From Kiritimatiellia bacterium (GTDB taxonomy: Bacteria; Verrucomicrobiota; Kiritimatiellia; CAIVKH01), in contig JANWZO010000006.1 in the NCBI GenBank assembly GCA_025054615.1, forward strand, positions 71,596-135,595: DNA of 64,000 bases. The letters are read 5' to 3'. This document shows positions 16,146 to 26,096 of this stretch, in pieces. The notes below the pieces were generated by a model. It was not told the origin of the DNA. It saw nothing but the letters and a program-made list of their open reading frames with translations, and made no database searches. The stretch's first letter is position 1, and every line of letters starts with the position of its first letter. Both the position numbers and the translations under genes were made by a program.

Positions 16146-16336
16146 TCCGAAATGTGTTGGAGCACATCCCGGGAATTGGCGCGTTTCCGGCCATTTCACT
16201 CGTCATTTTTGTCCTCATCTTCGCGGGATTGCTTTGCTGGGTGTTCTCAATGAGCCGACGACAGGTCGAGCACGCCAGCCGCTTGCCTCTCGAAGATGGC
16301 TCGCCGTCTGAAGGAGATCGCCGCCATGAAACGTGA
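16142..16336 (+). CDS. ccoQ: cbb3 oxidase small subunit (CcoQ-like)
   Basis: 64 residues with a single membrane helix (AISLVIFVLIFAGLLCWVF) and a charged C-terminus with SRRQVEHASRLPL. Small size, a single helix and position between ccoNO and ccoP identify it as the CcoQ/FixQ stabilising subunit; sequence alone would not. The start overlaps the ccoNO stop (ATGA) and its end overlaps the ccoP start by 11 nt. Confidence 0.8.
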   Translation: MIRNVLEHIPGIGAFPAISLVIFVLIFAGLLCWVFSMSRRQVEHASRLPLEDGSPSEGDRRHET

Positions 16337-16895
16337 TTATGAAGAGAAGCCGATGGCCGGCCACGAGGTGGACGGCATCAACGAGCTCGATAATCAACTA
16401 CCGCGCTGGTGGGTTTGGCTGTTCAACCTGACGATCATATTTTCAGTCATCTACGTGCTCTACTTCGACGTCTTCAAAATCGGCGATTCACAGGCCGCGC
16501 AGTATGAAAAAGAGGTGGCGCGCGCCCGGAAACAGCAGGCCGCGCCAGCCCCCGCGCTCGCCGCTGTCGCCGCCTCACTCGACGAGCCATCCGCCGACCC
16601 GCAAATCCTCGCCAAGGGCAAGGGCATTTATGTCGCCAATTGCGCCGTCTGCCATGCGCCCGACGGCGGCGGCCTCATCGGCCCCAACCTCTGCGATGAT
16701 TACTTCATCCACGGCCCGACCTTCGCCGATTCGGTACACATCATCCGGGAAGGCGTCCCCGCCAAGGGCATGATTCCGTGGAAAAACACGTTGCGCCCGG
16801 CCGACATCCACGCCGTGGCCAGCTACATTTTCAGCCTACGCGGCACCGCGCCCGCGAACCCGAAAGCGCCGGAAGGTGTGAAGGCGGAGGGATAA
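16326..16895 (+). CDS. ccoP: Mono-haem cbb3 oxidase subunit III (CcoP)
   Basis: 189 residues from ATG 16326; an in-frame codon at 16296 would lie wholly inside ccoQ. The N-terminus has the CcoP signature (HEVDGINELDNQLPRWWVW) leading into one membrane helix, then an Ala/Pro/Gln linker and a single cytochrome c domain with Cys106-x-x-Cys109-His110 and a distal MIPW methionine. Classical CcoP has about 300 residues and two haems; here the second haem domain is absent. It passes electrons from soluble cytochrome c to CcoO haem. A 139-nt gap with palindromes separates it from ccoG. Confidence 0.92.
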   Translation: MKRDYEEKPMAGHEVDGINELDNQLPRWWVWLFNLTIIFSVIYVLYFDVFKIGDSQAAQYEKEVARARKQQAAPAPALAAVAASLDEPSADPQILAKGKGIYVANCAVCHAPDGGGLIGPNLCDDYFIHGPTFADSVHIIREGVPAKGMIPWKNTLRPADIHAVASYIFSLRGTAPANPKAPEGVKAEG

Positions 16896-17034
16896 GGCAG
16901 CCGTCCGCCGGAGCAAATTTTTACAGAATCTGTAAATTCCATACGATGGAAGCCACAAAAAAATTTTTTACAGACCATGGAAATTTTCGCTCCGACGCGG
17001 GAACCATCGTTCTTCCACCCGCATCCAAAGTCCG
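16896..17034. promoter_or_regulatory. ccoP-ccoG gap with palindromic element, copy 1
   Basis: This is the only sizeable gap in the cco operon. It holds TTCCATACGATGGAA at 16937-16951 (perfect 6-bp arms), then an A7T6 tract, then TTACAGACCATGGAA at 16968-16982 (a decayed version of the same palindrome). The centres are 31 bp apart. A second copy of the whole arrangement lies at 25249-25294. It could be a composite operator or processing site for the ccoG-ccoH-safE end of the operon. No regulator is identified. Confidence 0.55.
16920..16936. repeat. 17-bp palindrome directly before copy 1
   Basis: TTTACAG and CTGTAAA form perfect 7-bp arms around AAT. It abuts the TTCCAT palindrome and has no counterpart at copy 2. 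Confidence 0.5.
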
Positions 17035-18462
17035 ATGAGCAGCGCGATTCCGGCCGTCGACTACGGAGATTTCCGCAACCAAATCCCGACCGCGGACCGC
17101 TTGGGCCGCCGCATTTGGATCTACCCGCGCAAGCCCGCCGGGCGCTTTTACCGCTGGCGCACCTGGGTTTCGTGGCTGCTGCTCGGCATATTTGCGGCGG
17201 GCCCTTTCATCCGCATCGATGGCGTCCCTCTGCTGTTGTTTGACATCCCGGAGCGAAAATTTGCGCTGTTTGGCCAGATTTTCTGGCCGCAGGACCTCTA
17301 CATTTTCGCGCTACTGCTATTGACGATCTTTGTAATGATTGTGCTGTTCACCGCCGTCTTCGGACGGATCTGGTGTGGATGGGCCTGCCCGCAGACGATT
17401 TTCATGGAAATGGTCTTCCGCAAAATCGAACACGCCATCGAAGGGGACGGGCCGCGACAGCGCGCGTTTGACGCCTCGCCATGGACACCCCAAAAAATTG
17501 CGAAGAAAACGTTGAAGCACGGGATTTTCCTTCTCGTCTCGTGGGTCGCCGCCAATTGGCTGTCCACCTACTTCGTCGGTCTGGATGATTGGTGGGCCTT
17601 CATTTCGGGCACTCCCTTCCAGCAGCCCGGCGCGCTGATCGCCCTGATCCTGTTCACGCTGCTCTTTTACGGAATTTTCGCGCGTTTTCGTGAACAGGCC
17701 TGCACGTTCATCTGCCCTTACGGACGTTTGCAATCGGTATTGCTCGACAACGACTCGCTAATCGTCGCCTACGATCACCGCCGCGGAGAGGCGCGGGGAC
17801 GCTTCAGCAAAGGACAAACGCGCGAGCAGCGCCGCGAGGCCGGCATTGGCGACTGCATCGATTGCGGGCTTTGCGTGGATGTTTGCCCCACCGGCATCGA
17901 CATCCGCAACGGATTGCAGATGGAGTGCGTGCACTGCACCGCGTGTATCGATGCGTGCGACAGCGTAATGGATCGGCTCCGCTTCCCTCGCGGGCTGATC
18001 CGTTACGCCTCGCAGCGAAATATTGCCGAGGGCCGCCCGTTCCGTCCGAATGCGCGAATGGCGCTCTACACGATTCTCTTGCTCGCGCTGACGGGTGTGC
18101 TCGCGGGAATTCTAATCACGCGCGACAATGTCGAGACCCAAATCCTGCGCGCGCCCGGCTCGATGTTTCAGGAAATGCCCGGCGGCGAGATCGGGAACCT
18201 ATTTTTGGTCAAGGTCGTCAACAAGACGCCGCGCGAAATACCAGTCGATTTGCGCATCGAGTCGCCGCCCGACGCGAGATTGACGTTGGCCGGTGGTGCG
18301 CTCGTTGCGCCGCGCGAGGGTCTCGCGCAGTCCGCCGCGGTCATCTCCGCGCCGCGCGGGCGGTTCATCGACGGGAATCTACCGATCGAAATCGGCGTGT
18401 ATGAAAACGGCGAGCGCGTCCGCGTGCGAAAAACCAACCTCGTTGGCCCTGCGACGCCATGA
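17035..18462 (+). CDS. ccoG: cbb3 oxidase assembly ferredoxin (CcoG)
   Basis: 475 residues. About five membrane helices carry Cys motifs at their edges (WCGWACPQTIFMEM, FICPYGR), followed by a ferredoxin-like region with two [4Fe-4S] motifs (CIDCGLCVDVCP and CVHCTACIDACD), another helix near residue 345 and a C-terminal Ig-like FixG domain. CcoG reduces Cu(II) to Cu(I) during CuB delivery to cbb3 oxidase and is related to NapH/NosR ferredoxins. The stop overlaps the ccoH start (ATGA). Also called FixG/RdxA. Confidence 0.93.
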   Translation: MSSAIPAVDYGDFRNQIPTADRLGRRIWIYPRKPAGRFYRWRTWVSWLLLGIFAAGPFIRIDGVPLLLFDIPERKFALFGQIFWPQDLYIFALLLLTIFVMIVLFTAVFGRIWCGWACPQTIFMEMVFRKIEHAIEGDGPRQRAFDASPWTPQKIAKKTLKHGIFLLVSWVAANWLSTYFVGLDDWWAFISGTPFQQPGALIALILFTLLFYGIFARFREQACTFICPYGRLQSVLLDNDSLIVAYDHRRGEARGRFSKGQTREQRREAGIGDCIDCGLCVDVCPTGIDIRNGLQMECVHCTACIDACDSVMDRLRFPRGLIRYASQRNIAEGRPFRPNARMALYTILLLALTGVLAGILITRDNVETQILRAPGSMFQEMPGGEIGNLFLVKVVNKTPREIPVDLRIESPPDARLTLAGGALVAPREGLAQSAAVISAPRGRFIDGNLPIEIGVYENGERVRVRKTNLVGPATP

Positions 18463-22039: not shown

Positions 22040-22889
22040 CTAGAATTTCACTTCGGCCGCTAGTCGCGCCAAAACGCTGTTCTCCGAATTTACGGCAATC
22101 CCCGCACTGACGTACAAACCATCCTCCGCGAAGGTCTTCGCATCCAGCGCGTGCGCCACATTTACACCGACTGCGCTTTCGCCCTCATACAACGCGACGC
22201 CAGCCGTCACCGTCGTGTCTCCCGTCTTCAACGACTGAATCGGACTCACAATCGCAGCCGCGGAAGCCACTCCGGCATAGGCGCGCGCCTGCGTCTTTTC
22301 CAGCCTTCGGCCCAGCTCGGCAATGTCGGCCGTGTTCTTTTCCACCTTCTTCTCCAGGTCGCTGACTCGCCGATTCACGCGGTCGATCCGCGCATTCAGG
22401 CGCGACTCCGTCCGTCTCAACTGCCGCACATTCACGGCATCGGTACCATTCCGTCCGTCGTCCACATTCGTCACTCGCCGCTCCATTCCAGGGGCACCCA
22501 CGCTGACCGTGTTCGGCTCGGTCGCCACGCTATTGGCGCCGAGCGCCACGCTGTTGTCTGCAAGCGCCGCGCTGTCTTCGCCCACAGCCACGCTGTTATT
22601 GCCGAACGCCAGCGCGTTATCTCCCAACGCCGTCGTCCGCTGTCCAACCGCCAGCGCGTTATTCCCGACGGCAACTGAGGACGCGGCCACAGCGCCGGCG
22701 CCGATCGCACTAAGCGAGCTAAACCCATTCGACAGCAATTCTGCAGAGTCCTAAAGCTTCATTGCCGAACCCAACCGCTGTACTGAAATCGCCAACATCT
22801 GAGTTACTACCGCCAAACGATGAGATCCCCTCGCCGCGCGCGAGATTATCATTTCCCACCGCCAACAATTTTCTAACCGATGGCAACAT
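22040..22889 (-). pseudogene. Frameshifted trimeric autotransporter adhesin (YadA-like)
   Basis: The last 232 codons (22040-22738) encode YadA head repeats (SVAVGNNALAVG, NSVALGANSVAT), a neck (NTVSVGAPGMERRVTNV then GTDAVNVRQL), a short coiled-coil stalk (LEKKVEKNTADIAELGRRL) and the four-strand membrane anchor ending LARLAAEVKF. Upstream head repeats continue in a different frame (22719-22889: VGNDNLARGEG, STAVGFGNEALG), and a third frame before it gives SLGKPNVAIG and then a stop. No signal peptide is found. So the 5' part is broken by at least two frameshifts, or the assembly is wrong here. TTG 22738 could still start a short product without a secretion signal. Confidence 0.7.
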
Positions 22890-24430: not shown

Positions 24431-25222
24431 ATGTTCGGCGGACTGACCATTGCGCGTCCTTATGGGATTCCAATCAAGCTGCATTGGACGCTGCTGATTT
24501 TTCTGCCCTTCATCGCCTTCAACATGGCGGAGACACTGGGGGTCCGGTCGGCCGGCTGGGGTTGGCTCGCGGCCCTGGGGCTCCTCGCGAGTGTTGCCCT
24601 GCATGAGCTAGGGCATTCCTTGGTTGCGCGCGGGCGCGGTTATCCGGTTCGCGACATCGTGCTGACGCCGATTGGCGGAGTCGCTTTCCTCACCCGGTCG
24701 CCCCGCCGACCGACGGATGAACTGGTGATTGCAATCGCCGGACCGGTCGTGAGCATCGCTCTTGCCGTGCTTGCTTGGGCCGCCTCCCCGTGGTTTCTTG
24801 CCGCGGGCGCGTCGCATCTTGCGAACACCATCCATTTCCTGGGATCGATCAACCTTGCCCTGGCAGTGTTCAATATGTTGCCGAGTTTCCCGATGGATGG
24901 CGGACGTGTTTATCGCGCCTGGCTGGCCAATCGAGTCGGCCGGCTAGAGGCCACGCGGCGAGCGGTGCGCCTGGGCAGGATCTTTGCCGTGCTGTTTGCG
25001 ATCGTCGGTCTTTTCTCAACGAATCTGTTGCTGGTGGTGATTGCTTTTGTTGTCTGGCAGGCGGCCTCGGCGGAGTATCGCATGGTTCAAATGCAGGAGC
25101 GGCCTCCCTATCCACCGTTTGCAGGGTTTATTGATCCCTTGAGCGTATTCCAGACGCCAGCGAACCGCCGGGGGCCCGAGATTGTCGATGTCGAGGTCGG
25201 ACCGCCTCCCTACAAGCGCTGA
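24431..25222 (+). CDS. Site-2-type membrane metalloprotease (M50)
   Basis: 263 residues from ATG 24431 (TTG 24413 possible). Starts with the RPYGIPIKLHWTLLIFLP motif of the SpoIVFB/Rv-type S2P branch, then HELGH with the two zinc His and the catalytic Glu, and NMLPSFPMDGGRVYR with the third, Asp ligand, within about six helices. It cleaves membrane-embedded substrates such as anti-sigma factors. There is no PDZ or CBS domain; a short cytoplasmic tail ends in EVGPPPYKR. It stands alone at the start of a rightward gene run and its substrate is unknown. Confidence 0.85.
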   Translation: MFGGLTIARPYGIPIKLHWTLLIFLPFIAFNMAETLGVRSAGWGWLAALGLLASVALHELGHSLVARGRGYPVRDIVLTPIGGVAFLTRSPRRPTDELVIAIAGPVVSIALAVLAWAASPWFLAAGASHLANTIHFLGSINLALAVFNMLPSFPMDGGRVYRAWLANRVGRLEATRRAVRLGRIFAVLFAIVGLFSTNLLLVVIAFVVWQAASAEYRMVQMQERPPYPPFAGFIDPLSVFQTPANRRGPEIVDVEVGPPPYKR

Positions 25223-25248
25223 GCCTTGGTTTAGATACGGCGCGAAAT

Positions 25249-25294
25249 TTCCATCCTATGGAATCGCCGCGGAATTTTTTTACATACGATGGAA
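25249..25294. repeat. Palindromic element, copy 2
   Basis: TTCCATCCTATGGAA (25249-25263, perfect 6-bp arms), then an A2T7 tract, then TTACATACGATGGAA (25280-25294, one arm mismatch). Centres are 31 bp apart as in copy 1 (16937-16982), while the intervening sequence differs. It ends 19 nt before the methyltransferase ATG, so it probably overlaps that gene's promoter or leader. Confidence 0.6.
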
Positions 25295-25313
25295 CTTTCC
25301 AGATACTTTTGCC

Positions 25314-26096
25314 ATGGCATCGCAGACTTTCTCGAGCGGCCCAGAGCTGGCGGATGTGGAAACCGCATCCGCGTCCTATGCCGCGCGGTTTGCCGGTGAC
25401 GTGGGCCGGTGGATGCTGGAGCGGCAGGAGCGCCTGGTGCTGGAGGCGTTGCAGAGGGCCGGTGCGCGGAGCGTGCTCGATGTGGGTGGCGGCCACGGAC
25501 AGCTCGCCCGGCCGCTCGCGGACGCAGGATACGACGTCACGGTTCTAGGAAGCGAGTCGATATGCGCGGCCCGAATCGCGGACCTCGTTCAATCGAACCG
25601 ATGCCGTTTTGTCGTGGGCAGCGTCATCGCGCTTCCGTTCGCCGATCGGTCGTTTGACGCGGTCGTGACGGTCCGACTCCTGGCGCATTGCGAACGCTGG
25701 CGGATGCTGATCCGGGAATGCGCGCGGGTGGCGCGGCGAGTGGTCATCGTCGACTATCCGGTGGCCGGCGGCTTCAATTTGCTGGCGCCGTTCCTGTTCG
25801 AAGCGAAGAAAAAAATCGAGCAAAACACCCGGCGGTGGCGAAATTTCCGGCATGGGGAGGTCGCGGAGGCGTTCCGGCAGTTCGGATTCGAACCGGAGCG
25901 GCGGACGGGGCAGTTTTTCTGGCCGATGGGCCTTCATCGGGCAATCGGCCGGCTCGGCGTGTCAAAAGCCTTGGAATGGGCTCCGGAGCGACTGGGCGTT
26001 TCCGCGCGATTCGGAACGCCGGTGATCGCCGCCTACCGGCGAACTGACCGCCGTGGGGACGGGTTCGGGCTTGAAGCCGGGTTCACCGGCGCCTAG
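25314..26096 (+). CDS. Class I SAM-dependent methyltransferase
   Basis: 260 residues from ATG 25314; earlier in-frame codons would run through the palindromic element and into the M50 gene. Motif I is VLDVGGGHG, and the following acidic and FDAVVTVRLLAH motifs fit the methyltransferase-11 fold. The C-terminal part (FLFEAKKKIEQNTRRWRNF, then EVAEAFRQFGFEPERR) may recognise the acceptor. The substrate is unknown; small molecules and lipids are typical in this group. It is followed after 9 nt by the cvpA-like gene, so the two probably share a transcript. Confidence 0.75.
   Translation: MASQTFSSGPELADVETASASYAARFAGDVGRWMLERQERLVLEALQRAGARSVLDVGGGHGQLARPLADAGYDVTVLGSESICAARIADLVQSNRCRFVVGSVIALPFADRSFDAVVTVRLLAHCERWRMLIRECARVARRVVIVDYPVAGGFNLLAPFLFEAKKKIEQNTRRWRNFRHGEVAEAFRQFGFEPERRTGQFFWPMGLHRAIGRLGVSKALEWAPERLGVSARFGTPVIAAYRRTDRRGDGFGLEAGFTGA

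Follow-up and report, generated by a model that had tools for sequence, protein, structure and literature searches.

The window, that is, the whole stretch of 64,000 nucleotides of DNA analyzed here, contains two arrays of palindromes, each flanked on both sides by genes of the + strand. Array 1 is located between a gene encoding a putative cytochrome c subunit, ccoP-like by sequence (16296..16895), and ccoG (17035..18462; TIGR02745, E=2.7e-124). Direct reading of the letters, together with a symmetric weight matrix, places three sites in this array: TTTACAGAATCTGTAAA (16920-16936, centre 16928), TTCCATACGATGGAA (16937-16951, or 16936..16952 if written as (A)TTCCATACGATGGAA(G); centre 16944), and TTACAGACCATGGAA (16968-16982, centre 16975), the 17-bp form of which, TTTACAGACCATGGAAA (16967..16983), carries an A-for-C variant half-site (TTTACA) that is included in the matrix of this genome. 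Array 2, read in the same manner, comprises TTCCATCCTATGGAA (25249-25263; 17-bp form TTTCCATCCTATGGAAT, 25248..25264; centre 25256) and TTACATACGATGGAA (25280-25294; 17-bp form TTTACATACGATGGAAC, 25279..25295; centre 25287). It follows a gene for a putative membrane protein, site-2-protease-like by sequence (24431..25222), and ends 18 bp ahead of the start of a gene for a SAM-dependent methyltransferase (25314..26096), the top NCBIfam matches of which are all under the curated cut-offs.

In a sequence-only reading of the window, the element had been described as two palindromes with centres 31 bp apart, present in two copies. Both copies are real, with centre distances of exactly 31 bp seen directly in the letters (16944->16975 and 25256->25287). 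Both pairs stand, but the account understates the whole, and the third palindrome of array 1, centred 16 bp upstream of the next site, had been overlooked. The copies had also been placed upstream of rightward genes, which is correct for ccoG and the methyltransferase gene; however, each array also lies just past the preceding gene of the same strand (24 bp after the stop of the ccoP-like gene for array 1, and 25 bp after that of the site-2-protease-like gene for array 2), so that the upstream position is only half of the context. Between the sites centred at 16944 and 16975 there is an A7T6 tract (CAAAAAAATTTTTT) that is common to three arrays of this genome (the other two being L005 and L011), and which may mark strong DNA bending or be left over from copying.

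In the genome to which the window belongs (G000; 2.48 Mb in 51 contigs), there are 150 perfect TTCCATNNNATGGAA sites, one of them being TTCCATACGATGGAA at centre 16944, compared with ~0.05 expected and 0 in the reversed control, a count well above the chance level that had been considered in the sequence-only reading. Pairs of the form TTCCAN5TGGAA-N14..18-TTCCAN5TGGAA number 82 (control 0, ~3e-6 expected). The symmetric matrix derived from 457 kb of this genome reads TTT[C/A]CA[T/G]NNN[A/C]TG[G/T]AAA. Within the same 457 kb, the centre-to-centre distances are 16 (counted nine times), 31/32, 47/48, 62-64, 93/94, and 124/125 bp, which form a lattice of ~15.7-bp multiples, or one and a half helical turns.

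In the class Kiritimatiellae, the general element takes the form (T)TTCCA-N5-TGGAA(A), a palindrome of 17 bp that repeats at 31-33 bp, that is, at three helical turns. Across the named collection (84,980 species), the pair pattern was found in five metagenome-assembled genomes, and all three of those carrying a taxonomic label belong to Kiritimatiellae. In the phylum, 48 of 388 genomes contain TTCCAN5TGGAA pairs, with the reversed control at 0 throughout. The proposed scan of related genomes thus yielded pairs across the class, but outside it only one of 257 Verrucomicrobiota-type genomes was positive (three pairs). With the broader pattern TTCCN7GGAA, pairs are present in 60 of 117 good-quality genomes of the class, the highest counts being 1,358 in G079 and 1,048 in G006. 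All genomes surveyed are draft metagenome assemblies, and the array-free families may hold dialects that the scans did not recognise; those of G116, G012, G004, and G018 surfaced only through de novo scans of palindromic pairs.

Arrays were also seen in viral sequences, where 18 matches in phage or provirus contigs include ~12 that look genuine by eye; no common binding gene was recognised among the contigs with these 18 matches. Two related phage or provirus contigs from IMG/VR (L235:3034-3330 and L236:2786-2977) carry arrays of 7-9 sites just 5' of a large-terminase-like gene, in the same place and with differing sequences. Spacings of 22 bp, or two turns, are also present in these two arrays.

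The arrays contain two, and sometimes three to seven, sites. Nearest-neighbour distances in six independent genome sets are nearly all 31/32(33) bp, with phase counts of 20+16 of 42 in the window genome, 62 at 32 bp and 9 at 33 bp in G079, 12+10 in G006/G035, 22+2 in family f8, 14+20 in family f26, and 11+12 in the others; departures are found at 16, 22, 30, and 62-65 bp. The phase is therefore fixed and does not vary freely, and since most spacers are unrelated between loci, the combination of conserved spacing and free spacer sequence noted earlier for the two window copies extends to all six sets. A fixed phase that is kept without conservation of the spacer points to two dimers bound on one face of the DNA, in agreement with the earlier proposal that a DNA-bound dimer pair is the selecting agent, and binding by dimers is, in our view, very probable. 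The palindromes are flanked by A/T, with T on the 5' side and A on the 3' side of the AT-rich stem. No reverse-complement covariation was seen between the two sites of a pair, which indicates that paired sites do not act as a single hairpin.

Although most spacers have diverged, near-identical ones occur at distant loci more often than the column-shuffled expectation in several genomes (31/1879 vs. 2.4 expected in G079, and 41/181 vs. 0.5 expected in the RGIG3636-type). An orthologous array differs between G066 and G086 by exactly one 31-bp unit, and there is direct similarity between the sites within pairs. The near-identical distant spacers, the 31-bp unit difference, and the similarity within pairs indicate that copying has a part in the growth and spread of arrays, after which the spacers diverge while the sites and their phase stay.

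The half-sites differ between sister species (TTCCA, TTACG, GTCCA, TTCCG), leaving the architecture unchanged. The dialect of G079 is TTCCAAT..ATTGGAA, that of G006/G035 is TTCCAAG..CTTGGAA, and family f26 uses TTCCAC/T; TTCCGA is found in G018, TTACG in G116 (116 pairs), and GTCCA in G012, G004, and G094. Common to all dialects are T at -6 and C at -4. Switches occur even within a genus (G116 with TTACG vs. G110, G076, and G192 with TTCCA; G012 with GTCCA vs. G038 with TTCCA), and G122 contains two dialects, TTCC (18) and TTACG (4). In G116 one gap holds three TTACG sites, whereas the corresponding gap contains a single TTTTCCACGCCGCGGAAAA in G192 and is free of sites in G076, a comparison indicating that array positions turn over, with too few such cases to count. 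Family f26 has further dispersed short repeats, of GGGACGGCACGCCGTGCCGTCC type and CAATATCCAATG type, which are distinct from the arrays (G116, L187:5150-5242 and 16471-16536).

The gene context was analyzed with a simple gene-calling script in 457 kb of the window genome, ~330 kb of G079, and 110 kb of G006. Of 20 arrays in the window genome, 18 are intergenic, with a single one of these in a convergent gap, and 17 are in gaps that border the start of one or more downstream genes; the neighbouring genes are a housekeeping mixture. Among the gaps of at least 100 bp in G079, arrays occupy 10/14 convergent, 18/26 divergent, and 38/76 tandem ones, and in the tandem gaps they have a median position 29 bp from the 3' end and 68 bp from the next start. 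Seventy gaps of G079 contain exactly one array and none contains two, compared with 14.5 expected to have two or more. The distances between arrays are also more even than would follow from gaps matched by type and length, with a CV of 0.47 vs. 0.80 in G079 (P<1/3000; minimum distance 1.16 kb) and of 0.53 vs. 0.88 in G006 (P=0.011). In the window genome the arrays are sparse, with a mean distance of ~23 kb, and the test for even spacing (P=0.077) is consistent with the same tendency, though not significant. Array density among relatives ranges from ~3.8 kb to 23 kb.

Two observations concern arrays that enter coding sequences. Two sites at a distance of 32 bp are located within the predicted coding sequence of nadE (NAD synthase) in the window genome (G000:C2:23307-23355, L051), which shows that the element can be tolerated inside a protein. 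In turn, read-through of arrays at gene ends creates repetitive C-terminal tails such as FSKAWK...FFQALEK (G006, L080:2199-2310; G066, L085:7080-7265). The palindrome has an open frame in these dialects, so that some annotated C termini in the class may be translated arrays.

The search for a co-occurring regulator, suggested by the sequence-only reading, did not yield the binding protein among the candidates examined, namely ParB, Y1_Tnp, Lrp, and the flanks of the longest arrays. ParB is universal and does not discriminate array-bearing genomes. All 20 array-bearing genomes tested have a full-domain Lrp/AsnC protein, but so do 11 of 19 array-free ones, and the recognition helix of this protein is nearly identical across differing dialects and in array-free genomes, and thus does not track the dialect. 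In G078 and G138 (family f31; L171 and L173), the class-wide 159-aa Lrp/AsnC protein has apparently lost the helix-turn-helix and retains the sensor domain only. The flanks of the longest arrays share no DNA-binding gene that could provide a clue of autoregulation.

The Competence domain of ComEC is present in 40 of 41 genomes. A ComEC open frame of at least 649 aa, a length criterion set post hoc once the split had been noticed in the search, is found in 21/23 array-bearing and in 3/18 array-free genomes; the association (Fisher 2e-6 by genome and 2.5e-4 by family, with phylogeny not corrected for) may reflect shared ancestry, as the array-free families may be one or a few clades. The exceptions are family f2, with a long ComEC and no detected arrays, and G026 and G024, which bear arrays and have no long ComEC. 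ComEC has ~500-600 aa in families f10, f24, f25, f28, f31, f34, and f37 and in G071, and ~650-850 aa elsewhere in the class; the frames of ~500-600 aa are possibly devoid of the metallo-beta-lactamase domain. Most array-free families fall in this 500-600 aa size range, and G071, with its short ComEC, has no arrays in a genus (g45, family f30) whose array counts run from 0 to 64. Some species that have a short ComEC are transformable.

Taken as a whole, the element of the window belongs to a family of paired palindromes that is dispersed over the genomes of Kiritimatiellae and extends across the class, and this family would serve, with a probability of roughly 0.4, in DNA uptake or self-recognition. 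Each 17-bp palindrome (core TTCCA-N5-TGGAA in the window genome) would most likely be occupied by a homodimer, and the two dimers of an array (in some arrays three to seven) would bind cooperatively at three helical turns from each other on one face of the DNA. The element would then be an address mark spread over the whole chromosome and not an operator of a promoter; the placement of the arrays argues against the latter, and we consider a non-operator role highly probable. The most likely use of such a mark would be the recognition of own DNA, as by a DNA-uptake sequence with species dialects, in which the array would be the signal and its reader a dimeric receptor with a link to the competence machinery; biased uptake followed by recombination would spread and space the arrays.

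Dialects with a shared core, even spacing at the kb scale, independence of orientation, and the long ComEC together resemble the DUS and USS of Neisseriaceae and Pasteurellaceae, which tentatively makes uptake or self-recognition the leading role, ahead of nucleoid anchors. Those signals likewise occur in hundreds to thousands of copies, regularly spaced at the kb scale and in any gene orientation, have dialects that are one or a few bases apart, and are accompanied by a competence channel gene in the genome. They are, however, short and asymmetric, whereas here two or more 17-bp palindromes are placed exactly three turns apart; USS does have helically spaced flanking segments. The spacing of USS is ~1 kb (PMC7811141), and the dialects of DUS share a core (PMC3630211). 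Counting against the uptake reading are the copying of spacers and the direct similarity within pairs, neither of which is needed by point-mutation models of uptake sequences.

We can speculate that the class uses an undescribed self-recognition code, in which evenly spaced arrays would be read by a dimeric receptor and switches of dialect would gate the exchange of DNA; such a code, somewhat doubtful as a whole, would be a DNA-uptake-type signal with an origin independent of Neisseriaceae and Pasteurellaceae and, equally tentatively, with a different architecture. Nothing relevant was found in the literature on the motif or on palindromes in the class Kiritimatiellae, which is almost wholly uncultured, so that an evenly spaced, phased, and putatively protein-readable chromosome mark appears to be present there with no description found. 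If the mark is an uptake signal, self-DNA recognition would have arisen independently here, each genome would carry a dialect that can be read, and barriers to gene exchange in uncultured lineages would be predictable from sequence.

The alternative that survives best, although rather unlikely, is that the arrays are sites of nucleoid architecture, at which a class-specific protein would anchor loops or domains at regular intervals, with about one array per inter-gene gap. Placement independent of orientation, the single array per gap, the over-even spacing, the helical phasing, and the A/T-flanked palindromes would all suit such anchors. They do not by themselves predict that sister species switch dialect, that one genome can have two, that many families of the class lack arrays, or that arrays are associated with ComEC, and the range of densities among relatives also speaks against them. 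Sites such as matS and those of Noc and SlmA are dispersed palindromes bound by dimers, single, distributed at the macrodomain scale, and stable in sequence. The Kiritimatiellae arrays share with them the dispersed, orientation-independent palindromes and presumably also binding by dimers, but differ in being phased, in having dialects, and in their evenness at the kb scale. If architectural, the arrays would provide a sequence-defined map of chromosome anchors. With either role, uptake or anchoring, sister species with switched half-sites provide a natural experiment on the joint change of a DNA-binding protein and its hundreds of sites, as well as a sharp criterion for finding that protein.

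An origin as REP-like selfish palindromes, which would be copied and have no host role or only a secondary one, is improbable, even though it would account for the high copy number, the intergenic location, the lineage-specific sequence and position, and the marks of copying, i.e., the excess of near-identical distant spacers and the exact 31-bp gain or loss between G066 and G086. REP/BIME elements are defined by a stem-loop with a GTAG or CGTC tag at one end (PMC3733652), and this tag is absent from the aligned elements. Y1_Tnp/RAYT is missing in G046, which has ~100 pairs, is present only as a fragment in the window genome, and occurs in array-free genomes. Selfish insertion also does not predict a strict phase with mostly diverged spacers, which is retained even where the spacers of an array have diverged fully, nor the mutual exclusion and even spacing of arrays. 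The resemblance to REP, BIME, and REPIN (PMC2817692, PMC3733652) lies in numerous palindromes outside genes that change fast between species and are in some cases arranged in regular arrays; the sites in Kiritimatiellae differ, however, in being symmetric, with no alternating orientation, no correlation with Y1_Tnp, a strict 31/32-bp helical phase, and divergent gaps used as often as convergent ones.

The operator or regulon implied by the upstream position in the sequence-only reading, for example that of a global transcription factor such as the single-copy Lrp/AsnC regulator, is very unlikely. Phased dimer sites, the many gaps with a downstream gene start in the window genome, and the presence of full-domain Lrp in all 20 array-bearing genomes tested would agree with it, but in G079 the gaps of all three types are occupied, convergent as much as divergent, with no preference for gene starts. 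In addition, the arrays are over-even, the neighbouring genes are housekeeping ones, and the recognition helix of Lrp does not follow the dialect. Palindrome pairs ~31-32 bp apart that bind cooperating dimers are also known as NrdR boxes and NtrC enhancer pairs; these control few promoters and have a conserved consensus, whereas the Kiritimatiellae arrays occupy hundreds of gaps and show no preference for promoters. An assignment as NrdR boxes, which are located at ribonucleotide reductase genes, was rejected, with varied housekeeping genes as neighbours and a consensus unlike that of the NrdR box. A promoter element was considered as well, since the TTTACA half is -35-like, yet it is found on either side whatever the direction of the gene; the sole promoter-like match at array 1 falls within the array itself.

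Transcription terminators or RNA hairpins, to which the location near gene 3' ends and the possible long hairpin folding of the G079 pairs might point, can practically be dismissed, as the polarity is wrong for terminators (a T-run before and an A-run after an AT-rich stem), the folding advantage of the window arrays over shuffles is small (z -1.2 to -2.0), paired sites do not covary as reverse complements, and divergent gaps are occupied. No intrinsic terminator, for which a stable GC-rich stem and then a U-tract would be expected, was called at the ccoG-side array, and Rfam gave no match save a tRNA.

Elsewhere in the window, an open reading frame of the - strand (22040-22738) contains repeated motifs of LGDNALAFGNNSVAVG type and resembles, by eye, the head of a YadA-like trimeric autotransporter.
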